From a virus: a stretch of 23,538 bases of DNA. Positions 1 through 21,093 of the stretch are shown here, in pieces. Below the pieces are notes generated by a model. That model did no database searches. It was not told the DNA's origin and saw nothing but the letters and a program-made list of their open reading frames with translations. The position numbers and the translations under genes are program-made. The stretch's first letter is position 1. Every line of letters begins with the position of its first letter. The stretch spans positions 1 to 23,538 of the IMG/VR virus record IMGVR_UViG_3300025303_000109, one strand, 5' to 3'.

Positions 1-2220
1 TCACAAGACCCACTCCACCGACGCCCGCCATGTGCGATTGGCGAGCGGGTACAGATAGACATGGTTGTACTGGTACGGCGACTCGCGCCACGCCCGGCGG
101 TCCGTCACGTTGTCCACGCCAACACGCCAGATCAGCAGTTGCCGGCCCACGTTCTGCTCATAACGAGCCCCAAGGTCCAGCCGCGTCCAGCTAGGAATCG
201 CCAGCGAGTTGTCCGGCAGCACCATGCGCTTGCCCTCGTAGACCACGCCCGCCTGCAGCTCCAGACCCGGCAGCCACACGTTCTGATGCGCCTGCAGCTT
301 CAGCACCGTCTCGGGCACGTTCGTCGGCTTCAGGCCGTTGAGCGTCACGTCCTCGCTGCGCTCGCGGCGCGCGCGCAGCTTCATCGCGCTCGCCATCAGG
401 CCGCCGTTCGTCCACTTCAGATCCGCCTGCGCTTCCACGCCGCGATGGTTCTGCTCGCCGTCGATGCGGGTCTCGAGCATGTTCTCGCCGTTCACCGTGA
501 CCGGCACGTCGCGCGTCGCGGGCTTGCTGATGTCGAAGTAGTTGATCGACCAGTCCACCGTCCGGCTGCCCGACTTCAAACCGATCTCCCACTGCTTGCT
601 GCGCAGCGCCGGCAGCACCGCCGTGCGGTTCGCATAAACCGGCAGGTTGGGCACGACCGCCGATTCAATGCCCTGGCCCCAGCTCGCGTAAGCCAGCAAC
701 TGCGGATCGATCGCGTAGCTCACGCCGAGCCACGGCGTCGTGAACGACTGCGCGTACGGATTCGGCGTGCCGACCTGGCCCGCCTCCGGACCGACCGCGA
801 CACTGTCGCGCTTGAGCCGCGTGTGACGCACACCGAGCCAGCCTTGCCAGCGCTCGCTGAACTGCATCGCGTCGCGCAGATAGAGCTCGGTGCTGCGCTC
901 GGTGCGGTTGGTGTTGGTGCCGGAGAGCGTGGGATCGGCCGTCGTCGGCAGCGTGCCCCAGATGTTGCCGGTGCCCGCCGGGTTGTAGGCCTGACCCTGC
1001 AGCCGGCTCTTGTAGCGCGAGAACAGCACGCCCGTCGTCAGCTCGTGCGCGATGCCCGCCGTTCTCAGCTTGCCCTGCGCCGAGAGATCGAGCGCGTCGC
1101 TGTTGCGGTGCTCGTTCTCGCTGCGGAAGTCGTATTGATCGAAGGTGCCGTTGGGGCAGTAGGTGCTCGGGTAATACGTGCCGTCGCCCGCGGTGCAGCC
1201 GAACGGGTAGGCGAGGCGGTCATCGTTGACCAGCCGCTGGATCGCGGCATGCGCCTGCAGCTTCCAGTCGGCATTGAGCTGATGCTGGACGCGCAGCGAG
1301 GCGGTGCGGCCCTCGAAGACGACCGGCAGGCTCCACGACTGGTTGTTGAGGTTGATGCGCGGATCGATGGCCTTGGCGTCGGGCAGCTTGTCGCCGAGCA
1401 GGCTGAAGCCGGGCTGGCTGGGCTGGCTCTGGCGGCTGAGCTCGACCTCGGCCTCGATCAGCGTGTCGCGAGTGACGCGCCAGTCGCCGGCGACGGCCAT
1501 CAGCCAGCGGTTGCCATCAGCGTCGCGCAGCTCGGGGCGGAGCTTGGCGGCCTGCAGGTTGACGCGCAGGCCGAAGGCCTTGTCGTTGCCGTGGCCGTCG
1601 CTGAAGCGGTGGCTCCAGTCCATCGCCGATTCGATGGTGCCGCGCTCGCTGACGCCGAGCATCACGCTGGTGAGCTCGACCGTCGGCCGCTTCACGACGA
1701 GATTGACCAGGCCGCCCGGGGCGCTGGTGCCGGACTGGATGCCCGACGTGCCCTTGAGGACTTCGACGCTGCCCTTGTTGGCCAGGGGGAGGGCGGTCTC
1801 GGCGTTGATCGGGAGGCCGTCGCGGCGGAAGTTGAAGCGGTTGTCGAGGTCGTAGCCGCGGACCTTCAGATAGGAGACGTAGCCGGTGGAGTTGTAGGAG
1901 TCGCCCACGCTGGCGTCGAGCAGCGTCAAACCGGCAAGGCTGCTCAGGCCGCGGTCGGCGAGCATCTCGGCGCTGATGACGCTGGCCTGCATCGGGAGCT
2001 TGGCGACCGGCGTGTCGCCGAAGCCGCCGACGGTGACGGGCGCATCGGCGGTGCCCTTGATGACGACGCTGGGCAGCGCGGGAGCCGCCGCCGAGGCAGA
2101 GGAGGCCGAGGACGCCGACTGCGCCGCGGCGGAGAGGGACAGGCCGCCAGCGGCCAGGGCGATCGACGCGATCGCGAGGCGGTGCAGCGGGAAGGGAGTC
2201 AGAACGGACGAAGTTGCCAT
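1..2220 (-). CDS. TonB-dependent outer-membrane receptor, probable thiamin/thiamin-precursor importer
   Basis: A 739-residue outer-membrane beta-barrel receptor that would use TonB/ExbBD energy to import a scarce ligand into the periplasm. A signal peptide (residues 1 to about 33, ending in Ala-Ala-Ala-Gln) is followed by a low-complexity Ala/Ser linker, a TonB-box-like stretch near residues 50-56 (LPSVVIKG), a plug domain (about 70-180, with VEVLKGTSG and the Gly-rich APGGLVNLVVKRP), and a barrel to the C-terminus. Two Cys (about 341 and 354) sit in a predicted extracellular loop, as in siderophore receptors of the FhuE/FoxA type. The start at 2220 was chosen because it directly precedes the signal peptide; the longer open frame begins inside the riboswitch. 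By sequence alone it would be called a siderophore receptor, but the upstream TPP riboswitch points to thiamin or a precursor (inference; thiamin-regulated outer-membrane receptors are known). The stop codon lies at the window edge, so the gene is complete. Confidence 0.93.
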   Translation of the reverse strand: MATSSVLTPFPLHRLAIASIALAAGGLSLSAAAQSASSASSASAAAPALPSVVIKGTADAPVTVGGFGDTPVAKLPMQASVISAEMLADRGLSSLAGLTLLDASVGDSYNSTGYVSYLKVRGYDLDNRFNFRRDGLPINAETALPLANKGSVEVLKGTSGIQSGTSAPGGLVNLVVKRPTVELTSVMLGVSERGTIESAMDWSHRFSDGHGNDKAFGLRVNLQAAKLRPELRDADGNRWLMAVAGDWRVTRDTLIEAEVELSRQSQPSQPGFSLLGDKLPDAKAIDPRINLNNQSWSLPVVFEGRTASLRVQHQLNADWKLQAHAAIQRLVNDDRLAYPFGCTAGDGTYYPSTYCPNGTFDQYDFRSENEHRNSDALDLSAQGKLRTAGIAHELTTGVLFSRYKSRLQGQAYNPAGTGNIWGTLPTTADPTLSGTNTNRTERSTELYLRDAMQFSERWQGWLGVRHTRLKRDSVAVGPEAGQVGTPNPYAQSFTTPWLGVSYAIDPQLLAYASWGQGIESAVVPNLPVYANRTAVLPALRSKQWEIGLKSGSRTVDWSINYFDISKPATRDVPVTVNGENMLETRIDGEQNHRGVEAQADLKWTNGGLMASAMKLRARRERSEDVTLNGLKPTNVPETVLKLQAHQNVWLPGLELQAGVVYEGKRMVLPDNSLAIPSWTRLDLGARYEQNVGRQLLIWRVGVDNVTDRRAWRESPYQYNHVYLYPLANRTWRASVEWVL

Positions 2221-2311
2221 CGGAATGCCGGAGCCAGGAATGCGATGGCAGGTCGGCAAACCGGACACGCCGATGAGAAGGCGGCGTGCGAGGACACCCG
2301 TGGTGTCGAAG

Positions 2312-2440
2312 GCATGCTTCCCTGCGCGAGGATTAACTCGGCCTACAAAGATAAGCATTTGTAGGCTGACGGCTGACTGGCCGTCATCAGGTTCAAAGGG
2401 ACTTTCTCAGCCGGTTGGTCTCACAACCAGCACCCCTAGC
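2312..2440 (-). promoter_or_regulatory. TPP riboswitch (thi box) with two extra hairpins
   Basis: Read on the minus strand, the conserved TPP aptamer elements occur in order: CTAGGGGTGC (2439-2430), a P3 hairpin (GGTTG/CAACC), GCTGAGA (2411-2405), CCCTTTGAACCTGAT (2400-2386), the P5 hairpin CGAG-TTAATC-CTCG (2340-2327) and GCGCAGGGA (2326-2318). This matches the thiM/thiC-type consensus. Between CCTGAT and P5, where the usual J4/5 has only a few bases, lie two perfect hairpins: TGACGGC/GCCGTCA (2386-2367) and GCCTACAAA/TTTGTAGGC (2366-2341). The receptor start codon lies about 95 bases downstream. I cannot tell whether control is transcriptional or translational; no clear terminator follows the aptamer, which favours translation. 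Confidence 0.9.
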
Positions 2441-2477
2441 GATCCCGGCGCACGAAGCGCCGAGCTATCTCATTCTA
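2441..2477 (-). promoter_or_regulatory. Candidate promoter -10 and 5' leader hairpin for the receptor mRNA
   Basis: On the minus strand, TAGAAT at 2477-2472 is a good -10 element. It would place the transcript start near 2465, just before a GC-rich hairpin (CGGCGC, TTCG-type loop, GCGCCG; about 2463-2445) and then the TPP aptamer. The -35 region at the expected distance is weak (GCACGT). The hairpin may stabilise the 5' end. The call rests on the -10 match and on the position directly ahead of the riboswitch. Confidence 0.4.
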
Positions 2478-2803: not shown

Positions 2804-3820
2804 ATGGCATTCACGAAAAGAATCGAATTCGCAAACTACACGTTGAAGTTTGGCGACGACAAGGTCATGTTGGATTTACTGGAGGAGATTGTTTGGCCTT
2901 CATTTCAGGAACGTGAGTACATTCGCAAGCTCAAGAACAGGTCGAGTTACTTCTTCTTGGACACGCAACTGGTCAACCTGCGCGCCACGACCGGTGAGAA
3001 GTCCGTGGCAATTGCTGGCCGGATCGTAAAGAATACGAAGATTGCTCGCGACCAATACTACCGCTCCGGTGGCCTAGTGCCTGATAAGCGCGAACTCGCA
3101 TCGGCACCTTCCGCGATTTTCGTGTTGTTGCTCGAAAATCATCGACTTTTGTATTGTCGAGAAATGTCGAATGCACCGGGCATTCAGAATTTCGCCAGTA
3201 CTACGCAAAATTTTCTTAGTCAGCGTCACAGCGAGTTCATTCAGGAAAAATTGACAGAGGTGCAGGCGGAGCGTGGGGAAATTCCAAGAGGCGTACGCAC
3301 GGATTTGTTTCGGCGCTTCCCACGTCCGAAGGTGAGAGTTACTCCGCTCTCCGGGCAGCAGGAGTTGAAGGAATTTGTTCAGCGCTTCGCCTCAATCGAG
3401 CAACTGAACATCAAACTTCTTCCTACGAATCACGAGGAAATCAATAATGATGATTTCTGGAAGGAAATGGAGCGGCGGCGCAAAGAAATGAAGAGTGAAA
3501 ACACCGCCATCCGGTTCTCCAACGCGGACGAGGGATTGAGCGCGGCTAACGTCGTGGCGCAGACAGCTGCAGCTACCGAGCTTGCGAACTCCGAGGTCAC
3601 GATGCGCGGTCACGACGCTCAGGGTGACAAGATCACAGGCAACAATGACGACTTCAGCTTGACTGTCCCTCTGGAGGATCTGCCTACAGACGTCGCGGCT
3701 GCTGCAGCTTCGATGTTCGGCCATTTCATAAATATCGCGGGTCGCGGATTGATTACGCTTCCCGCGATTGCAGCTGGTGTTGCCGAAAAGGTAAATGGTT
3801 TTCTTGCGGGTAGGGAGTGA
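2804..3820 (+). CDS. RexA-like soluble component of a putative two-gene phage-exclusion system
   Basis: A 338-residue protein with no signal peptide, preceded by a good ribosome site (GGAGG nine bases before ATG). An N-terminal alpha/beta region contains the hydrophobic strand APSAIFVLLLENHRLLYCRE (101-120). Strand-rich VRVTPL and LNIKLLP follow near 177-207, then a charged helix with EMERRRKEMK (221-230). A C-terminal part has VTMRGHDAQGDK (265-276), and the last 35 residues are Ala/Gly-rich and hydrophobic. As I remember lambda RexA, it shares the order of elements, including a similar Arg-x-x-Asp-x-x-Gly-Asp segment; this is weak, unaligned similarity. The stop overlaps the start of a four-helix membrane gene, as expected for a RexA/RexB or Kiwa (KwaB/KwaA) pair. 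GC content is visibly lower than in the neighbours, so recent transfer is likely. Function is inferred from architecture; DUF4747- or DUF4868-type proteins are alternatives. Confidence 0.85.
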   Translation: MAFTKRIEFANYTLKFGDDKVMLDLLEEIVWPSFQEREYIRKLKNRSSYFFLDTQLVNLRATTGEKSVAIAGRIVKNTKIARDQYYRSGGLVPDKRELASAPSAIFVLLLENHRLLYCREMSNAPGIQNFASTTQNFLSQRHSEFIQEKLTEVQAERGEIPRGVRTDLFRRFPRPKVRVTPLSGQQELKEFVQRFASIEQLNIKLLPTNHEEINNDDFWKEMERRRKEMKSENTAIRFSNADEGLSAANVVAQTAAATELANSEVTMRGHDAQGDKITGNNDDFSLTVPLEDLPTDVAAAAASMFGHFINIAGRGLITLPAIAAGVAEKVNGFLAGRE

Positions 3821-4526: not shown

Positions 4527-4730
4527 TCAGGCGTGCTCGCATAGCCGATGTCGGGCACGTGTATCCGTCACATCTTGGAATGATCGGACTCCCATTCCAT
4601 CGAACTCCGCCCGGGGGATCGTCTTAACGGGCCGCGAGCAGGACAGTTCGTCGCCCTCCCACGGCTTCAGGCGTGCGAACCAAGAGCGATGGGCTGGCTC
4701 AACTCTCGGAGCCAACCCTTGCCTTGCCAC
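4527..4730 (-). CDS. Possible small protein at the end of the leftward operon
   Basis: An open frame of 67 codons from a GTG at 4730, overlapping the end of the upstream gene by about 60 bases in another frame. The part downstream of that gene reads like protein (WFARLKPWEGDELSC and PVKTIPRAEF), and the operon terminator does not come until 4460, leaving space for a gene. There is no clear ribosome site, and the true start may be later than 4730. I do not recognise it. It could also be a chance frame in GC-rich DNA. Confidence 0.3.
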   Translation of the reverse strand: MARQGLAPRVEPAHRSWFARLKPWEGDELSCSRPVKTIPRAEFDGMGVRSFQDVTDTRARHRLCEHA

Positions 4731-4924
4731 AAATTCTGCAGGCTATTGCGCGCCACGGCGCCGGCTTCCCGCGCGACCTCGGGGCCGCAAGCCACGATTT
4801 CGCCGTGTTCGTTGATAATGGCCAGTCGTGCGGGGCGCCCGTCCACGGTGACGCTGAGGCCCTCATGGGCCACAGCGCTGATGATCGCGCCGGGGATGGC
4901 GCCGGTCGGTTGTTGTCCGATCAT
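4667..4924 (-). CDS. Small hypothetical protein downstream of the StbB-like ATPase
   Basis: An 85-residue protein beginning MIGQQPTGAIPG, 23 bases after the StbB-like stop; an upstream in-frame GTG at 4984 would overlap the ATPase gene and is less likely. It contains a short beta-rich segment (LSVTVDGRPARLAIINEHGEIVACG) followed by an amphipathic helix with LQNLWQGKGWLREL near the end. No signal peptide or membrane helix is visible. Its place is that of StbC or TraM in the plasmid operons stbABC (R388) and traKLM (IncP), but I see no sequence evidence for either. Function unknown. Confidence 0.65.
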   Translation of the reverse strand: MIGQQPTGAIPGAIISAVAHEGLSVTVDGRPARLAIINEHGEIVACGPEVAREAGAVARNSLQNLWQGKGWLRELSQPIALGSHA

Positions 4925-5699: not shown

Positions 5700-6103
5700 T
5701 CAGGTCTTGCTGGATGGCTTCAGAAGCTGCTTGGCCAGCGGGCTCAGCGTCTGTTGCAGGTAGCGGTCGCCCACGCGCTGAGCGCGACCCTTGAGGGTTG
5801 CTGCGACGGGCTCGGGTGGGGGCTCGTCGCTGGGGTTCTTCGATGGGCTGCATGCGAGGGCTTCTCCGGTTGAGGCGCGATGTGGTGGCGCTGGGGTTGC
5901 TTCAGGTGGCGCGGCGGTTGCGCGCACGCGCAAAAAAACTTGCTGATCGCTTGGCGAGAGACCCGCAGCCCGTGCGTCGCCAGCCATGCACGCATCTGCT
6001 CTTGCGTGTAGCCAAGCGCCCTGAGGCGCTGCAGCTCGGCGGCGTGGGCGTTGACGCCCTGCGGGTTTCGCGGGTTCTCGCGAAGCCACTGCTCAAGCTC
6101 CAT
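5700..6103 (-). CDS. StbA/TraK-like helix-turn-helix protein, interrupted by a frameshift at a T7 run
   Basis: Two open frames together make one plausible 134-residue protein. The first part (from ATG 6103) is MELEQWLREN onward and contains LRALGYTQEQMRAWLATHGL and VSRQAISKFF (to residue 57), a helix-turn-helix like that of TraK and StbA-type plasmid DNA-binding proteins. At the run of seven T (minus strand, 5938-5932) this frame passes into low-complexity sequence and ends at 5744. A -1 shift there continues into 77 residues of good coding sequence: a Pro/Ala linker, then LKGRAQRVGDRYLQQTLSPL and a basic end, stopping at 5700. The ATG overlaps the end of the Myb-like gene, and the StbB-like ATPase follows 29 bases later. 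The break could be a mutation, a sequencing error in the homopolymer, or slippage that makes short and long products. Confidence 0.7.
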
Positions 6104-9366: not shown

Positions 9367-9894
9367 ATGGGACAAATACACATGAGCGGAGATGCTGAGC
9401 GCATTACCGGAGTGGTGACGCGCGTCATGGCTGCGGTGCGCGCAACGGTTGAGGCAACCCCTGACGGCTACGCGCGGCATGGCGCCGCATTACGAAAGGC
9501 GCCGGGCACCCTCCGCAACGAACTGTGTGACCGCGGGCCTGACAGCCGCGCCAAGCTCGGGCTCGCGGATGTGCTGCGCGTCATGCACGGCTCTGGTGAC
9601 CTGCGCACCCTTCACGCAATGGCACTCGAGTTCGATCACGTGGCGATCCCCTTGCCCGCCGTGGCAAGTGCGACCTCCTGCGCCGACACAGTGGCCGCCA
9701 TGGCGGTCGAGTTCGGCGATCTGATCGCCGTCTATTCCCGCGCCGTTCAGGACAACCGCGTGACCAACAACGAGCTGGCCGAGGTGATCAGGGCATGGGG
9801 CGAGCTGCTGGTGGCTGGCAAGGCGCTCATCAACGACGCGTCAGCGCGCAACGCCGCGCTGCACCGATCACAGGGCGTTGCCCTGAACTGCTGA
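9367..9894 (+). CDS. CII-like phage regulatory protein (CP76 family)
   Basis: A 175-residue protein. The N-terminal half contains a family-typical segment: RHGAALRKAPGTLRNELCD (about 37-55), then SRAKLGLADVLRVMHGSGD and LRTLHAMALEF, which fits phage regulatory CII proteins of the CP76 type. The second half is helical (ADTVAAMAVEFGDLIAVYSR and NNELAEVIRAWGELLVAG). Two starts are possible, 9367 and an in-frame ATG at 9382; neither has a strong ribosome site. It follows the Cro-like gene by 74 bases and precedes replication genes, the position of cII in lambda. CII proteins activate lysogenic promoters; here the target is not visible. Confidence 0.82.
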   Translation: MGQIHMSGDAERITGVVTRVMAAVRATVEATPDGYARHGAALRKAPGTLRNELCDRGPDSRAKLGLADVLRVMHGSGDLRTLHAMALEFDHVAIPLPAVASATSCADTVAAMAVEFGDLIAVYSRAVQDNRVTNNELAEVIRAWGELLVAGKALINDASARNAALHRSQGVALNC

Positions 9895-14216: not shown

Positions 14217-14795
14217 ATGGGAAAGCTCAGCTATTCGCAGCTCGGTGAGCTGCTCGGAATCAGCAAGCAGGCGGTGGCCAAGGCGGTCAAAGCGGGCATG
14301 CCGGTGGACTCTTTCGAGGCCGCGGACACATGGCGCAGGGCCAACCTCGATGTCAGCCGTACCAAGGCTGCTCGGGTCGATGTCAGCGCCAGGCCTTCGG
14401 GGCGAAGTGTTGATGACGCAGGTGACGACGACGGCCCCCAGTCGTCGGATGACGATGCCTACAAGCGTGCCCGCACCGAGCGCGAGCAGATCCGCCGTGA
14501 TCGCGAGCAACTGGAGCTGGACCGCGAGCGCGGGAGCCTCGTGGACAAGGCAGAGGTCGCGCGGCTGCGCTTCACCGAGTTCAGGGCGCTGCGCGATTCG
14601 CTTGGCCACATCGGCGCGCGGGTCAAGGACGCGCTGAGCGTCGAGTCGGACCCGCTGCGCTGCGAGCAGATCGTGACCAATGAGCTGGAGCGCGCTCTGA
14701 GCGTCTTCGCAGACCAGATTCTGACGCGCGGCGTCATGCAAGACGATGACGACGAAGACGACGGCGATGGCGAAGGAGGCTCGGGCGTCGATTGA
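14217..14795 (+). CDS. terS: Terminase small subunit, Nu1-like
   Basis: A 192-residue DNA-recognition subunit of the packaging motor. The N-terminal winged helix reads LSYSQLGELLGISKQAVAKA and VKAGMPVDSF (about 4-33), as in lambda Nu1. An acidic linker (VDDAGDDDG) follows, then a long charged helix (KRARTEREQIRRDREQLELD) and GSLVDKAEVARLRFTEFRAL, which in this family precedes the surface that binds the large subunit. The C-terminus is very acidic (QDDDDEDDGDGEG) and is encoded in the overlap with the next gene. No ribosome site is seen before the ATG at 14217; a direct-repeat tract occupies that place. Confidence 0.9.
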   Translation: MGKLSYSQLGELLGISKQAVAKAVKAGMPVDSFEAADTWRRANLDVSRTKAARVDVSARPSGRSVDDAGDDDGPQSSDDDAYKRARTEREQIRRDREQLELDRERGSLVDKAEVARLRFTEFRALRDSLGHIGARVKDALSVESDPLRCEQIVTNELERALSVFADQILTRGVMQDDDDEDDGDGEGGSGVD

Positions 14796-16971
14796 CACAG
14801 TGCGCCGCGCGATCTCGGATGCCCTTCGGCCGGACGCCAAGGTGCTGGTAGACCAGTGGGCCGAGGACAACCGAATCCTGCCGCCCGACACGCCGGAGCC
14901 GGGGCCATTCCGCAACACGCGGACGCCGTACCTGATCGACATCCAGCGCACGATGTCACCCGGCAGCCCCTTCCGCGAGGGCTGGTGGCAGAAGCCTCAC
15001 CAGGTCGGCGGGTCTGTGTCGGGCGAGAACATGATCGGCGCTTGGGTGTGCGCGGCGGCCGGTTCCCTCCTCGTCGTCTTCCCGACGCTGGACGACGGCA
15101 AGCAGTGGGAGCTGCAGCGCTTCGAGCCCATGCGCGCGAACACGGCGGCGCTGCGCAAGCGCATTCGCTCCGGAGGCGAGAAGGGGAGCGGCAACACCAA
15201 GATGCGCAAGCGCTACCCGGGCGGCGTCATGCGTCTGGTGGGCGCGAACCGGGTTGGCGCGCTGAAGTCCGCGACCTATCGCTACATCAAGTTTGAGGAG
15301 TGCGACGAGTACCCCGCCGACATCGACAACCAGGGCGGAACGATCAGTCTCGCGACCGCGCGGGCCGCGAACTTCGGCAACCGCGCCAAGATTTACGGCG
15401 ACTCCACGCCGACGGTTGATGGTGCGAGCAACATCGCCGCGCAAGTGAAGCGAGGCGATCAGCGCAAGTGGTTCATGCACTGCCCCGACTGCGGGCATCC
15501 GCAGACGCTGGTGTGGTCGCAGATGAAGTGGCGCGACGGCGACCCGGACTCGGCCGCGTACGCGTGCTGCGAGTGCGGCGCGCTGAACAGCGAGGCGGCG
15601 TGGAAGGCTCGGAACTACGCGCTTCGGGCACCTGGGATGAGCGAGGCGGAGGCGAAGGCCGCGGGACTCGCCTACTGGGAGGCGACGGCGGTCGGTGAGC
15701 CCGGTGTGGCGAGCTGGCTGGGGTTGAACGCGCTGGGCGCGCCCCTCGGGTGGCGGCCCTGGCCCCAGCTCGTGATCGACTGGCTCGCGGCGAAGGGCGA
15801 CGAGAACAAGCTCAAGACCTTCACCAACAACATGCTGGGGGAGACCTACAGCGAGACCGTTCGTAATCAGGTCGGCGCCGGGGATCTTCAGAACCGCGCC
15901 GAGGCCTACGAGCTGATGACCTGCCCGCAGGGCGGTCTGGTTGCTGTTGCTGGTGTGGACACGCAGGACAACCGCCTTGCCGTGGCGATTCGCGCTTACG
16001 GCCGCGGTGAGGAGAGCTGGGGCATCTGGCACGGTGAAATCTTCGGCAGCCCAGCTCAGCCGGAGACCTGGACGAAGCTGGCTCAGCTGCTTGAAGCGCC
16101 GATCACCCACGCGAGCGGCCAGGTGATGCGGGTGGATGCCGCTGCAATCGACGCAGGCGGTCACCACGCGGAGGACGTGTATGCGTTCACCCGCGCCGCA
16201 AAGCTCCGCGGCAAGCACTGGTTTGCAGTCCGCGGCGCCAAGGCTTACGACCACCCCAAGCTCGGGCGGCCGAAGACCTACGAGTACACGTGGCGCGGCA
16301 AGCCCGTCCCGGGCGGTGCCGAGCTGCGATGGGTGGGAACGCAGGCCATCAAGAACCTGATCGACGGCCGACTGGCCCTCGGGGAGCGCGGGCCCGGCTA
16401 CTACCACATGCCTCTCGGCTTTGGCGCCGACTACTACCAGCAGCTGCGAGCGGAGCGGCGCGTCTGGCGCAAGGACGGCAAGACCGGCAACCGGGTGCTG
16501 TGGTGGGAGTGTCCGAGTGGCGTGCGCAACGAGGCATGGGACTGCGAGGTGTACGGCTACGCAGCGTACCTCTACACGATGAGCGGCCAGCACGCGGAGA
16601 CCGTTTGGCGCGCCCGTGAGCAGCTGTTTGCGCCGCGCCATCCCGATTTGTTCGATCAGCCGGCGATCGCGTCACCAACTCCACCTCTTGCGCTACGACC
16701 GCAAGCGTTCGCACCCGCAGTGCAACCGGTGGCAACCGAGGTGCAACCGGTAGCGCCCGCCGTGCAACCGCAGCCAAGTCCGGCCGCAGAGCGGCGGCAG
16801 GTTCAGCCCGAGCCCGAGCCCGAGCCGGAGGAGCCGGAGCCACAGCTGCAGGTCATCGACTTCAGCGCGGTGCGGCAGTACGCCGCGGCGCCACCGCCAC
16901 AGCCAGAGCCACCGCCATTGCGCCGGTCGCAGTCCAGCTTCGTGCGCAGCTGGGGCTCGGCCGGTGTCTAG
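14746..16971 (+). CDS. terL: Terminase large subunit, lambda gpA-like, with C-terminal extension
   Basis: A 741-residue packaging ATPase and nuclease; lambda gpA has 641 residues. The ATPase domain contains the degenerate Walker A KPHQVGGSVSGEN (83-95), LLVVFPTLDDGKQWE (108-122) and Walker B YIKFEECDEYP (180-190). Cys pairs in HCPDCGH and ACCECG (about 245-280) form the expected zinc-binding loop. The nuclease domain begins at VAGVDTQDNRLAVAIRAYG, with the first catalytic Asp. After about residue 640 comes an extra Pro/Gln/Glu-rich tail of roughly 100 residues with three 7-residue repeats starting VQP and a PEPEPEPE run. It overlaps terS by 50 bases; an alternative start at 14767 (MAKEARAS) would shorten the overlap. 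Confidence 0.95.
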   Translation: MTTKTTAMAKEARASIDTVRRAISDALRPDAKVLVDQWAEDNRILPPDTPEPGPFRNTRTPYLIDIQRTMSPGSPFREGWWQKPHQVGGSVSGENMIGAWVCAAAGSLLVVFPTLDDGKQWELQRFEPMRANTAALRKRIRSGGEKGSGNTKMRKRYPGGVMRLVGANRVGALKSATYRYIKFEECDEYPADIDNQGGTISLATARAANFGNRAKIYGDSTPTVDGASNIAAQVKRGDQRKWFMHCPDCGHPQTLVWSQMKWRDGDPDSAAYACCECGALNSEAAWKARNYALRAPGMSEAEAKAAGLAYWEATAVGEPGVASWLGLNALGAPLGWRPWPQLVIDWLAAKGDENKLKTFTNNMLGETYSETVRNQVGAGDLQNRAEAYELMTCPQGGLVAVAGVDTQDNRLAVAIRAYGRGEESWGIWHGEIFGSPAQPETWTKLAQLLEAPITHASGQVMRVDAAAIDAGGHHAEDVYAFTRAAKLRGKHWFAVRGAKAYDHPKLGRPKTYEYTWRGKPVPGGAELRWVGTQAIKNLIDGRLALGERGPGYYHMPLGFGADYYQQLRAERRVWRKDGKTGNRVLWWECPSGVRNEAWDCEVYGYAAYLYTMSGQHAETVWRAREQLFAPRHPDLFDQPAIASPTPPLALRPQAFAPAVQPVATEVQPVAPAVQPQPSPAAERRQVQPEPEPEPEEPEPQLQVIDFSAVRQYAAAPPPQPEPPPLRRSQSSFVRSWGSAGV
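16720..16782 (+). repeat. Three 21-bp tandem repeats in the terminase tail
   Basis: Three consecutive 21-base units, each beginning GTGCAACCG (16720, 16741, 16762), encode VQPVATE, VQPVAPA and VQPQPSP. They lie in frame in the disordered C-terminal extension of the large terminase, before a Glu/Pro run. Units 1 and 2 are more alike than unit 3. Confidence 0.85.
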
Positions 16972-16985
16972 ACCTTGGAGAGCAC

Positions 16986-17507
16986 ATGCAACAGAACATC
17001 ATCGCTGGCGACACGCTCAGCTTCGCCAGAAACTGCACCGCCTACCCGGCCAGCGCCGGCTGGCGGCTCCTCTACACGCTGATTCCGCGCGCCAGCTCGG
17101 CGCAGCGCATCAACTTCGACAGCCAGGCCGACGGGTCAGCGCACCGCGTCAATGTCGCCGCGGCGCTGACGAAGGGCTGGGCGCCGGGCGACTACGCCTG
17201 GGCCTGCACGGCCACTGATGGCGTGAATGTCTGCACCGTGGAGCGCGGGCAGTGCGTGATCGAGCCTGATCCGCGCGAGGCTGCCTCGGGTACCGACAGC
17301 CGCAGTCTCGCGAGACGGGCGCTGGACGATGCCCGCGCGGCCATGGCTGCATGGTCGCCCACACGTCGCCGCTACAAGGTCGGCGACCGCGAGCAAGAGT
17401 TCAACAGCGCCCAGGAGATCCTGCGCGTCATTGCCTACTGGGAGCGGGAATGCGCCCGCGAGGAGGGGCGCCCGCTGGGTGCGCGAATCTACTTCGGGAC
17501 GCGCTGA
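16986..17507 (+). CDS. gpW-like head-tail joining protein with extra N-terminal domain
   Basis: A 173-residue protein between terminase and portal, the place of lambda W. The N-terminal part (about 1-95) is beta-rich and Ig-like: IIAGDTLSFARNCTAYPASA, WRLLYTLIPRA and WAPGDYAWACTATDG. The C-terminal part (about 105-173) follows the gpW pattern: a helix LARRALDDARAAMAAWS, a beta hairpin RRYKVGDREQEFNSA, a second helix ILRVIAYWERECAREEG and a final IYFGTR. In lambda, gpW (68 residues) seals the portal after packaging. Here the joining domain appears fused to a separate domain. The gpW comparison is my reading of the pattern, not an alignment. Its stop overlaps the portal start. Confidence 0.82.
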   Translation: MQQNIIAGDTLSFARNCTAYPASAGWRLLYTLIPRASSAQRINFDSQADGSAHRVNVAAALTKGWAPGDYAWACTATDGVNVCTVERGQCVIEPDPREAASGTDSRSLARRALDDARAAMAAWSPTRRRYKVGDREQEFNSAQEILRVIAYWERECAREEGRPLGARIYFGTR

Positions 17508-19114
17508 TGTCGGGCGGCTTCAAGACCTTCAGCGAGCCCGGCAGCAGCATCCTGCGCGACTTTCGAGCCGCCATGCAGGCCCGCCGACAAACGGGGCTGC
17601 CGCTGACCACGCCGCTGCGCGCGCAGCGCAGCTTCGCGGCCTCGCAGTCCACCGTCCTGTCGGCAGGCTGGCCGACATGGGATGCTTCGATCAACAGCCT
17701 GCTGCGTAGCGCGCTGCCGGTGCTCAAGGCTCGCAGCCGCCACTGGTCGCGCAACACGGGTCAGGGCCGACGATTCTTGAACCTCGTGCGCAATGGCGGG
17801 GTGGGGCCTGCAGGGTTTCCGCTGCGGATGCAGTGCGGCGATTGGGTCAAGGGTCCAGGCGGCTACAAGTGGCAGCTGGACAAGCTGGCCAATGACGCCA
17901 TCGAGGCCGCTTGGCTGGAGTTCTGCCAAGCCGGCAACTGCGACGCGTCGGGAAAGTTCAGCTTCGGCGAAGCCTGCCGCCTGCAGCTGGAGATGGTGGC
18001 TCGCGATGGCGAGTTCCTGGGCCGGCATCTGCGCGGTGCGCCCAACAAGTGGCGCTATCAGGTTCAGCTGCTCGCGACCGACCGCCTGGACCACAGCGCC
18101 AATGCCGATGCGGTGGGCTCTGGCAATGAGGTGGTGCTGGGCGTGGAGCGCAGCAGTGTGGGGCGCCCGGAGTTCCTGCATGTGTTGCGGGCCAATCCTC
18201 TGGACGCCCGCGGCACGCGCAACGCCGAGCGAGTGCCCGCAGGCGACATGCTGCATGGCTTTGTGGCCATCGATCCCGAGCAAGTGCGTGGCGTGCCCTG
18301 GTCGCATGCCGTGCTGCTGGGCTCGCACATGCTCGCGGGCTTCTCGGAGAGCGCGGTCTTCGCCGCCCGTGCGGGAGCCTCCCAAATGGGCTTCCTGCAG
18401 CAGACGGCCGGCGAAGGCGGACCGCTTCGACCCGAGGAGCTGGGCGTGAAGCCCGACGCTGACGGCGAACTGAGCAAGGAGCTGCGCCCCGGTGCCGTCG
18501 ATCTGCTGCCGCCCGGCGTCACGTTCGTGGGCTTCGATCCGAAGTATCCGAGCGATGCCTTCGGTCCGTTCACCAATGCAGTGAAGCAGGACATTGCGGC
18601 CGGCCTCAACGTGGCCCACCACAACCTCAGTGGCGACATGACCGGCGTGAACTACAGCTCGGCGCGAATCGCTGAGCTCGCTGAGCGCGACGGCTGGCGC
18701 GGCGTGGCGCACTGGTTCATTGGGGCCTGGGTGGTACCGGTCTTCCGCGAGTGGCTGCAACTGAGTCTCTTGGCCAGTGCGATCCGGCTACCTAGCGGCG
18801 CGGCGCTTCCCGCCAGCAAGCTGGACAAGTACCTGGCCGGAGTGCAATTCCACGGCCGCGGCTGGGACTGGGTGGACCCGCTCAAGGAGGTCAATGCGGC
18901 GCGCATTGCCCGCGAGGAGGGCTTCACCACGCGCACGCAGGTCGTGGCCGCGAAGGGCGGCGACTTTGAGGACAACGTGGCCGAGCTGGCGCAGGAGAGC
19001 GAGATCCTGGCCGCGCACGGCGTGACCCTGGGTGCGGCTCAGGCCGGGCCGCCGCCACAGAAGGCGGCCCCCGTCGCCGCCAACCCTGAAGAAGAAAAGG
19101 AACTCGAAGAATGA
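17507..19114 (+). CDS. Portal protein, lambda gpB family
   Basis: A 535-residue portal, the ring at the packaging vertex. The N-terminal region ILRDFRAAMQARRQTGLPLT and LKARSRHWSRN, followed by DWVKGPGGYKW, leads to the stem and clip region. The family signature YPSDAFGPFTNAVKQDIAAG, LNVAHHNLSGDMTGVNYSSA lies near 345-385, and FAARAGASQMGFLQQ near 285-300. The C-terminal tail is charged (NPEEEKELEE). ATG 17507 overlaps the preceding stop by one base; an open frame starting at 17351 is only an extension through the upstream gene. The stop overlaps the protease-capsid start (ATGA), so the head genes are translationally coupled. Confidence 0.95.
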   Translation: MSGGFKTFSEPGSSILRDFRAAMQARRQTGLPLTTPLRAQRSFAASQSTVLSAGWPTWDASINSLLRSALPVLKARSRHWSRNTGQGRRFLNLVRNGGVGPAGFPLRMQCGDWVKGPGGYKWQLDKLANDAIEAAWLEFCQAGNCDASGKFSFGEACRLQLEMVARDGEFLGRHLRGAPNKWRYQVQLLATDRLDHSANADAVGSGNEVVLGVERSSVGRPEFLHVLRANPLDARGTRNAERVPAGDMLHGFVAIDPEQVRGVPWSHAVLLGSHMLAGFSESAVFAARAGASQMGFLQQTAGEGGPLRPEELGVKPDADGELSKELRPGAVDLLPPGVTFVGFDPKYPSDAFGPFTNAVKQDIAAGLNVAHHNLSGDMTGVNYSSARIAELAERDGWRGVAHWFIGAWVVPVFREWLQLSLLASAIRLPSGAALPASKLDKYLAGVQFHGRGWDWVDPLKEVNAARIAREEGFTTRTQVVAAKGGDFEDNVAELAQESEILAAHGVTLGAAQAGPPPQKAAPVAANPEEEKELEE

Positions 19115-21093
19115 ATACGTTCCAGCGCGCGGCCCTTGTCGCCGCTGCCCTGGCGATGGCGGGGCCGGCTGTGGCCGAGCGAGCCATGGCAGCTCCGGTC
19201 GGCGAAACGCCGCAGCAGCTTGCCGTTCGGCTGCACGCGTCCGACGTGCTGCGCCTGTACGCCAAGGTCGACAAGGAAAGCATCAACGAGGAGGCGCGCA
19301 CCGTCGAGATCGCGTGGGCCAGCGAGGCGCCTGTGCCCCGCTGGTTCGGCTTCGAGGTGCTGGACTGCACGACCGACAGCATTCGCCTAGCGCGGCTGAT
19401 GGATGGCGCGCCGCTGCTGTTCAACCATGACCGCGACGGCCTCATCGGCGTGGTCGAGAGCGTCAGCATCGGCTCGGATCGCGTCTGCCGCGCAGTCGTG
19501 CGCTTCGACACCTCCGAAGAGGCTGAGAAGCGCTGGCGCCAGGTGCTCAACGGCGTCCTGCGTCACGTCTCGGTCGGCTATGCCGTGTCCGCGATGGTGC
19601 TGGAGTCCGACGAGGACGGAATCCGCACCTACCGAATCACCGACTGGGAGCCCTATGAGCTTTCCATGGTGACCATTCCCGCCGACCACTCGGTGGGCGT
19701 CGGCCGAAGCGCCGATCTCTTCTCTGTTTCGGCTGCGGCCTCGGTGGCCGCAGATCCTGCAACCGTCCCCACAACCGATCCCACAACCATTCCCGCAACG
19801 CCGAAGGAAAACCGTTCCATGCCGCAAACGATTGAAACCCCGACCCAGCCACCGGAGAACGCCGACGTGGTCCGCCGCGACGCCCTGCTGGGCCTGGGTC
19901 AGCGTTATGCCGATTACATCAGCATCGCCGATGTGCAAACCGCCTGCCGCGATGGCCACACGCCCGAGCAGCTGCAGGAGCTGGTCATCCAGCGCATGAC
20001 CAGCAAGCACAGTGACACGCGCAATGCGCATATCGGCATGAGCGATAAAGACGTCGGCCGCTACAGCGTGGCTCGCGCCGTGGCCGCCATGGTGACGGGC
20101 GACTGGAAGGCGGCCGGCCTGGAGCGCGAAGCCAGTGAAGCCGCCGCCAAGATGTTCGGTGGCACCTCGCGCGGCCTGCTGCTGCCGATGGACGTGATGA
20201 GCCGCTCGTTCAACGTGGGCACCGCGGCGGAAGCCGGTAATCTGGTGCCCACGACGCTGCGTGACGACATGTTCGCCGACGTGCTGCGAAGCCGTCTGGC
20301 CATGGGTCGGCTAGGTGCCACGATGCTGTTCGGGCTGACCGGCAACGTGGATCTGCCGCGCAAGACTTCGGGAAGTGCGCTGAGCTGGCTGACGGAAGTC
20401 GCCGGCGCCGCCACCACGCAGGTCAACACCGGGAAGGTCAGCCTGACGCCCAAGCGCATCGGCGGTGTCATCGAGTTCAGCAAGCAGGCCGTCATCCAAT
20501 CGGCGATGGCGGTGGAGCCGCTGCTGCGTCAGGATGTGATGTCCGAGTATCAGGTGCAGTTCGAGACCGCGGCCATCAACGGCTCGGGCGCTGCCGGTCA
20601 GCCGCGTGGCCTGCGCAACACCAGTGGCGTGGGCTCGGTGGTGGGCGGTGCCAACGGTGCCTCGCCGACCTGGGCGCATGCCGTGGCGCTGGAGAGCGCC
20701 TGCGCCAACGTCAATGCCGAACCCGATGCGCGCAGCGGCTACCTCATCAACACGCGCTTGCGCGGCACGTTCAAGACCACGCAGAAGGCGGCGAACCTGC
20801 CTTTCATCTGGGAGAACGGCGCAACGCCGCTGAACGGCTACCGCGCCGAGGTGACCAACATCGTGCCCAACAGCCTGTCCAAGGGCACGAGCGCGGGCGT
20901 CTGCAGCTCGCTGATCTTCGGCAGCAACTGGGAGATGTTCGTGATGGCCCAGTTCGGCGCCATCGAGCTGCTGCTGGACGAGGTGAGTCTGGCCGCCAAC
21001 GGCCTCAACCGGCTGCTGCTCAATGCCTTCGTGGACACGGGCGCTCGCCGTGCGGCCGACTTCTCGGTGATGGACGACGCTCTGGCTGGCTGA
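19111..21093 (+). CDS. Prohead protease/major capsid protein fusion (HK97 type)
   Basis: A 660-residue fusion. Residues 40-200 form a U35-type prohead protease: LLFNHDRDG with the likely catalytic His106, RHVSVGYAVS with Ser154, and WEPYELSMVTIPAD. A Pro/Thr/Ala-rich linker (about 205-240) follows, then a helical scaffold-like delta region, and an HK97-fold capsid domain from about residue 335 (EAGNLVPTTLRDDMFADVL onward, PRKTSGSALSWL, NGSGAAGQPRGLRN). Such fusions are known in phages of Burkholderiales. An in-frame ATG at 19819 (residue 237), preceded by GAAGGA, could start a separate capsid product. The first 30 residues are hydrophobic and end in AVA, like a signal peptide, which is odd for a cytoplasmic head protein; ATG at 19186 is an alternative start without a clear ribosome site. 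Confidence 0.94.
   Translation: MNTFQRAALVAAALAMAGPAVAERAMAAPVGETPQQLAVRLHASDVLRLYAKVDKESINEEARTVEIAWASEAPVPRWFGFEVLDCTTDSIRLARLMDGAPLLFNHDRDGLIGVVESVSIGSDRVCRAVVRFDTSEEAEKRWRQVLNGVLRHVSVGYAVSAMVLESDEDGIRTYRITDWEPYELSMVTIPADHSVGVGRSADLFSVSAAASVAADPATVPTTDPTTIPATPKENRSMPQTIETPTQPPENADVVRRDALLGLGQRYADYISIADVQTACRDGHTPEQLQELVIQRMTSKHSDTRNAHIGMSDKDVGRYSVARAVAAMVTGDWKAAGLEREASEAAAKMFGGTSRGLLLPMDVMSRSFNVGTAAEAGNLVPTTLRDDMFADVLRSRLAMGRLGATMLFGLTGNVDLPRKTSGSALSWLTEVAGAATTQVNTGKVSLTPKRIGGVIEFSKQAVIQSAMAVEPLLRQDVMSEYQVQFETAAINGSGAAGQPRGLRNTSGVGSVVGGANGASPTWAHAVALESACANVNAEPDARSGYLINTRLRGTFKTTQKAANLPFIWENGATPLNGYRAEVTNIVPNSLSKGTSAGVCSSLIFGSNWEMFVMAQFGAIELLLDEVSLAANGLNRLLLNAFVDTGARRAADFSVMDDALAG

Follow-up and report, generated by a model that had tools for sequence, protein, structure and literature searches.

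The TPP riboswitch on the minus strand of the window, by which we mean the whole analysed stretch of 23,538 nucleotides, is very probably the attR of an integrated phage, rebuilt as a hybrid aptamer of phage and host DNA by riboswitch-targeting large serine integrases. This reading was obtained by comparing sequences, and it is carried by the hairpin structure of the aptamer, the anatomy of attachment sites in relatives, the covariation of the stems and the register of an integrase motif.

The aptamer lies at 2302..2447 (minus strand). In a cmscan search, positions 1-105 of the RF00059 model aligned end to end to 2447..2302 (35.7 bits, E 1.5e-5), and the match covered P2/P3, CUGAGA, P4/P5 and the AGGGA strand. 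This score is below the Rfam gathering score of 54.3 bits, which is a curation threshold and no structural feature, and a search of the window at that threshold gave no TPP match. Most likely the low score results from the penalty for an insertion, as 59 nt separate ‘CCUGAU’ from ‘CG-AGGGA’ in the window and 14 in the RF00059 consensus. The alignment places these approximately 45 additional nt between P4/J4-5 and P5. In the rest of the aptamer, the pyrimidine-binding motif CTGAGA of J3/2 (2405..2410) is intact and the 5' strand of P4 (CCTG, 2388..2391) pairs with CAGG at 2324-2321.

Two hairpins at 2341-2386 had been described in an earlier note made from the sequence alone, and its coordinates proved to be exact. 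Folding of the segment 2386..2341 by itself gave precisely two hairpins, one of 7 bp abutting one of 9 bp (-22.9 kcal/mol, z = -6.0), a stability that none of 200 dinucleotide shuffles reached, and both hairpins were kept in the MFE fold of the whole element. Hairpin 1 (2367..2386, minus strand) is formed by TGACGGC/GCCGTCA and hairpin 2 (2341..2366, minus strand) by GCCTACAAA/TTTGTAGGC; folding and covariation support both. The same note had located them in J4/5, packed without spacers against a canonical P5. Folding and the RF00059 alignment agree with this packing, and in the covariance alignment the hairpins fall within J4/5, outside the arm known to vary (P3/P3a). The optional helix described for TPP aptamers, P3a, sits at a different place in the structure (PMC2258182).

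To find other aptamers of this kind, we used a pattern in which CTGAGA and GAACCTGAT are followed, after a long gap, by CGNAGGGAA. Two further IMG/VR records with hairpin aptamers were found (L015 and L052), both with the riboswitch near a prophage edge, and many bacterial loci were among the matches listed. A looser scan gave 87 loci, nearly all by chance, of which those with CTGAGA upstream were kept. Among the matches from Burkholderiaceae, one or two hairpins occupy precisely the insertion point of the window. An alignment of TonB-linked TPP riboswitches from this family, along the lines proposed in the earlier note, confirmed that the insertion recurs, but in a minority; the canonical form prevails and is strongly conserved. 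Altogether the hairpins recur in 34 distinct aptamers, with sequences that differ from one to the next. As the MAFFT alignment (A1) misregisters hairpin 1 due to differing loop lengths, pairing was counted from the fold of each sequence, with pairing across sequences as a control. In the 34 aptamers the outer six pairs of each hairpin were paired in 97% of cases within one sequence and in 52-53% across sequences, the first value being high by construction since the helices were taken from each sequence's own fold. The stronger sign of covariation in these sequences is the range of pair types at fixed positions: several occur at every stem position, and G-C, C-G and A-T at most of them. This pattern of substitutions indicates that the RNA structure of the J4/5 hairpins is under selection. 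With RF00059, such hairpin riboswitches reach about 35-45 bits, less than the gathering score, and standard annotation thus misses them.

Further variants of the P4/P5 region came up in these searches. In one, an internal loop and an additional stem lengthen P5 itself; this variant was seen in Pseudomonas oryzihabitans (L103, L111, L158), in L097 and L167 (Chromohalobacter) and in many Phycisphaerae loci. These P5 extensions were kept apart from the J4/5 insertions and not pooled with them. A J4/5 hairpin before a canonical P5 was also seen in Paenibacillus (L104, L107, L116, L118, L125, L136, L157, L159, L164) and in other Firmicutes (L091, L138, L165). The riboswitch-clade integrase was absent from the stretches examined around these Firmicutes loci, and their hairpins would have a separate origin, perhaps in another integrating element.

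Important insight into the origin of the insertion came from the ends of related elements. Host riboswitches are canonical at the crossover (...ACCTGATTGAGGTAA|TCCTCGCGCAGGG). The empty site is a conserved 47-mer without hairpins, CTGAGAnAGTCCCTTtGAACCTGATTGAGGTAATCCTCGCGCAGGGA; its pattern was matched by 206 of 401 Burkholderiaceae genomes, and forms with an insert make up about one tenth of the matches listed for it. Relatives of the integrase occur in 12 of the 401 genomes, and a canonical host TPP 5' half stands before the closest of them (G288, G350, G219). In these bacterial genomes the other end of the element is a hairpin TPP riboswitch, about 24 kb away in G288 and 86 kb away in G350. 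In the case of G003, both ends lie in one record. The left end has a canonical TPP 5' half ending in ...GAACCTGACTGAGGTAA, followed by GCCCC...CAAAGTAAACT and then by the serine integrase, and the right end has a complete hairpin TPP riboswitch and the start of a TonB-like receptor. G005 is similar, the left end having a related integrase and the right end a hairpin riboswitch that precedes a CytX-like permease. The left copies are without hairpins and the right copies with hairpins in G003, G288 and G350 and also in the remnants of 1-4 kb in G219, G004 and G200, the left copy of G200 being interrupted. The G219 remnant carries a decayed aptamer. Another remnant attR was noted in L302 (about 5730-5890), where CTGAGA has decayed (CTGGAAAA) and the integrase arm TTTTACTTTG is intact. 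The G288 element (G288:C37:168015-192535; L297, L298) is an island and not a phage; its ORFs, named by eye as patatin-like, DUF262-like and large helicase-like, are possibly defence genes.

The viral contigs L225, L227 and L228 provided the attP form. There the hairpin-bearing 5' half of the riboswitch stands directly before int, flanked by right-end phage genes on one side and by int on the other. After GAGGTAA or GAGATCA these contigs continue with GCCCC/GCCTC...TAAACT, which replaces TCCTCGCGCAGGG and the aptamer's own 3' half. The genes at the right end of G003 and G005 directly precede attP in these three contigs, which most likely makes them unintegrated forms. All four types of att site were thus observed: attL and attR in G003, G288 and G350, attP in L225, L227 and L228, and attB in the canonical sites.

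The integrases of G003, G005 and L228, found at one end of each element, contain Resolvase, Recombinase and zinc-ribbon domains. In the int tree, riboswitch-targeting integrases are separated from those targeting the rimO region with a support of 100/100. The latter form a more distant sister clade (L234-L242), inserted beside a rimO-like gene (GGGCACCCGAGCGATACCATACCTATACGCGG). The P arm and the reverse complement of the P' arm matched best in one register, about an AA or CA centre shared with attB, in all seven elements compared, the symmetry in L225 taken alone being not significant. On this basis the crossover in the window would be the central dinucleotide AA at 2333..2334 (minus strand). 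In serine integrases, the attP half-site has 25 bp and the zinc domain binds an outer motif at a distance of about 16-24 bp to the central dinucleotide (PMC3783163). In the window, ATGCTTATC (2350..2358, minus strand) lies in register, 16-24 nt from the putative crossover and in the loop of hairpin 2, a position matching the attP zinc-domain contact of the A118-family integrase (PMC3783163). The loop and 3' strand of hairpin 2 would consequently form the integrase P half-site. A TTTA/TTAT motif at -24..-16, mostly within the loop of hairpin 2, was present in all 11 elements and absent from all 25 element-free hairpin loci (Fisher p 1.7e-9, from a small number of elements and from related sequences that are not independent).

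In the window itself, which comes from an IMG/VR virus record, the genes on both sides of the aptamer fit an attR. Phage genes stop just 5' of the riboswitch. They include a CII-like activator (9367..9894, plus strand, phrog_101), a replication protein, DnaB, the terminase large subunit (14746..16971, plus strand, PF05876 and PF20454) and a portal protein with protease/capsid (17351..21093, plus strand, PF05136, PF05065 and PF04586). On the other side lies a host gene for a TonB-dependent receptor, cut at the window's left end (1..2220, minus strand, PF00593 and PF07715). From the aptamer onward, this side is 86% identical at the nucleotide level to Mitsuaria sp. GD03876, and the comparison with that genome gave no match further 5'. 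Comparing attP (L225, L228), attL (G003, G288, G350) and empty sites, P5 emerges as the recombination core (CGAGTTAATCCTCG, CGAG-TTAATC-CTCG, 2327..2340, minus strand), with a 5' strand from the phage and a 3' strand from the host. The junction would leave phage DNA from 2335 upwards and host DNA up to 2332.

A marker gene of the elements is also present, encoding an 85-aa ‘MIG’ protein (MIGQQPTGAI..., 4667..4924, minus strand). Relatives of it lie 5' of attP or attR in 9 of 11 elements, and none was found in the element-free hairpin loci searched. The protein had no match in Pfam and is a candidate recombination directionality factor. Two ORFs lie between attR and the phage core (2804-4437, plus strand); one of them (2804..3820), with a sub-threshold DUF4747 match in the Pfam search, looks like cargo of the prophage end and had no relative in the viral contigs searched. 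The record ends before int and attL, so that attR is the one att site in the window. The window phage is only distantly related to the other riboswitch-targeting elements, and in the stretches examined around its terminase relatives, both riboswitch-clade int and the MIG gene were absent. The attR sequence with its in-register motif, the adjoining phage genes on the 5' side, the host homology starting at the aptamer and the MIG gene point to the attR of a prophage, and from them we infer that the window phage uses a riboswitch-clade integrase. Such an integrase is predicted at the far end of the prophage, together with an attL in which a canonical 5' half up to TGAGGTAA is joined to GCC(C/T)C...AGTAAACT.

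Signals for expression are distributed over both halves. A -10-like TAGAAT (2472..2477, minus strand) lies on the phage side; near it, no full match to the sigma-70 consensus was found. All elements scanned have a similar hexamer at a distance of 14 or 33-41 nt on the 5' side of the aptamer, and several also have a terminator just before it. From the host side comes a stem of TGCCATCG (2250-2243) and CGATGGCA (2222-2215) on the minus strand, spanning the start codon ATG at 2220-2218, with both halves in 12 of 15 loci compared. It is a probable translational expression platform.

These observations can be combined in one mechanism. A clade of large serine integrases, carried in Burkholderiaceae by phages, one genomic island and remnants, would use as attB the DNA of the P5 stem-loop in TPP riboswitches, chiefly those before genes for TonB receptors and CytX-type permeases, and would recombine it with attP in the P5 loop at an AA or CA centre. 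The attP, directly before int, would bring a -10-like element, sometimes a terminator, and the 5' part of a riboswitch up to the P5 loop. Integration would split the host riboswitch at P5 and leave its canonical 5' half at attL. Because the element carries its own 5' half in attP, the phage 5' half and the host 3' half would form a complete hybrid aptamer again at attR, ahead of the host gene, which would thereby probably stay regulated. It is expected that this hybrid binds TPP and controls the gene downstream. The P half-site of the integrase would have to sit right 5' of P5, which is J4/5 in the RNA, and would be fitted there as one or two hairpins with the protein-binding motif in a loop and with co-varying stems. 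In the simplest account, the DNA motif is tolerated in the loop, and the stems still let P4 and P5 meet. Altered TPP affinity through the hairpins is possible.

Not all hairpin riboswitches adjoin an element. Ten stand beside the same reductase/ferredoxin genes as canonical sites do and have no element in between, and one element-free hairpin riboswitch (G263) retains a near-complete arm (CATATCTTGTTGGCC). Precisely such a riboswitch would remain if a prophage were deleted between its two homologous riboswitch halves, and we infer that these loci are scars of lost elements. The nearest element-free relatives of the window host (L110, L204) also have two hairpins, but without the motif; in this host lineage the hairpins may thus predate the present prophage. 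A more speculative extension, to which we give somewhat less credence than to its opposite, is that P5-loop phages seize the transcription initiation and half the aptamer of a thiamin-linked receptor or permease gene for their own benefit, and that the scars are no longer attB, leaving the riboswitch working and the host immune to re-integration there.

Element-free loci also bear on another origin of the hairpins, namely a host-evolved variant, a multi-helix junction that tunes affinity or adds an input, with the adjacent prophage having captured host sequence. Hairpin aptamers without a nearby element are indeed common in Roseateles-type genomes among the matches listed, and selection on the stems would be expected of such a variant as well. 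However, the host halves at attL lack hairpins whereas attP and attR have them, and canonical sites dominate in Burkholderiaceae. Moreover, fixation of the loop motif is confined to loci with an element, and the motif mirrors the P' arm beyond the crossover. A host-evolved variant is consequently unlikely.

A second input had also been considered in the earlier note, and two stable abutting hairpins could suggest a specific second sensor or protein-binding element for tandem regulation, independent of DNA recombination. We found no evidence of a second ligand or input at the hairpins. Their stem sequences vary freely, element-free loci have no conserved loop, and the segment 2341-2386 matched no Rfam family besides TPP itself. 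Recombination at a prophage attR explains the insertion, and a separate sensor is very improbable. Even less credible is the idea that a REP/MITE-like hairpin, repetitive or mobile, landed by chance in a dead riboswitch. The decayed aptamer of G219 would fit it, but the core motifs are otherwise intact, and one or two covarying hairpins at the same position in 34 distinct aptamers, unrelated in sequence between loci, are not one repeat family.

Rebuilding at attR, the reading we prefer, shows how one sequence could satisfy two constraints, RNA folding and recognition of the DNA by a protein, if the motif to be recognised sits in the loop of a hairpin. This reading would explain both a structural variant of the TPP riboswitch and why such riboswitches score below the Rfam threshold, and it suggests that integration history shapes riboswitch evolution. 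It also points to a natural integrase/att pair whose landing site is very well conserved in Burkholderiaceae. The open literature, subscription papers being outside the search, yielded no report of a riboswitch as attachment site. This appears to be a phage attachment site of an undescribed kind, in which a metabolite-sensing riboswitch is split and rebuilt.

Regarding known systems, the window aptamer shares with other TPP riboswitches of RF00059, e.g. E. coli thiM, the P1-P5 architecture, CTGAGA, ACCTGA, CGNAGGGA and the full-length model match. It differs by the 45-nt two-hairpin insertion between J4/5 and P5, by falling below the Rfam cut-off and by its putative assembly from phage and host DNA. 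Prophages and islands in tRNA or tmRNA genes, and e14 and phage 21 in icd, restore their target after integration. Like these, the present elements carry a part-copy of the target, which would be whole after integration. Here, in contrast, what would be restored is an mRNA leader that senses a ligand, and the RNA is visibly altered, with the element supplying the 5' part together with a promoter-like sequence. The integrases have the Resolvase, Recombinase and zinc-ribbon domains of large serine integrases such as A118/LI integrase, phiC31 and Bxb1, and their attP is likewise pseudo-palindromic, its T-rich outer motif lying 16-24 bp away from a central dinucleotide (PMC3783163). Unlike in those systems, the attB would here be the P5 loop of a riboswitch, and the P arm would double as an RNA hairpin.
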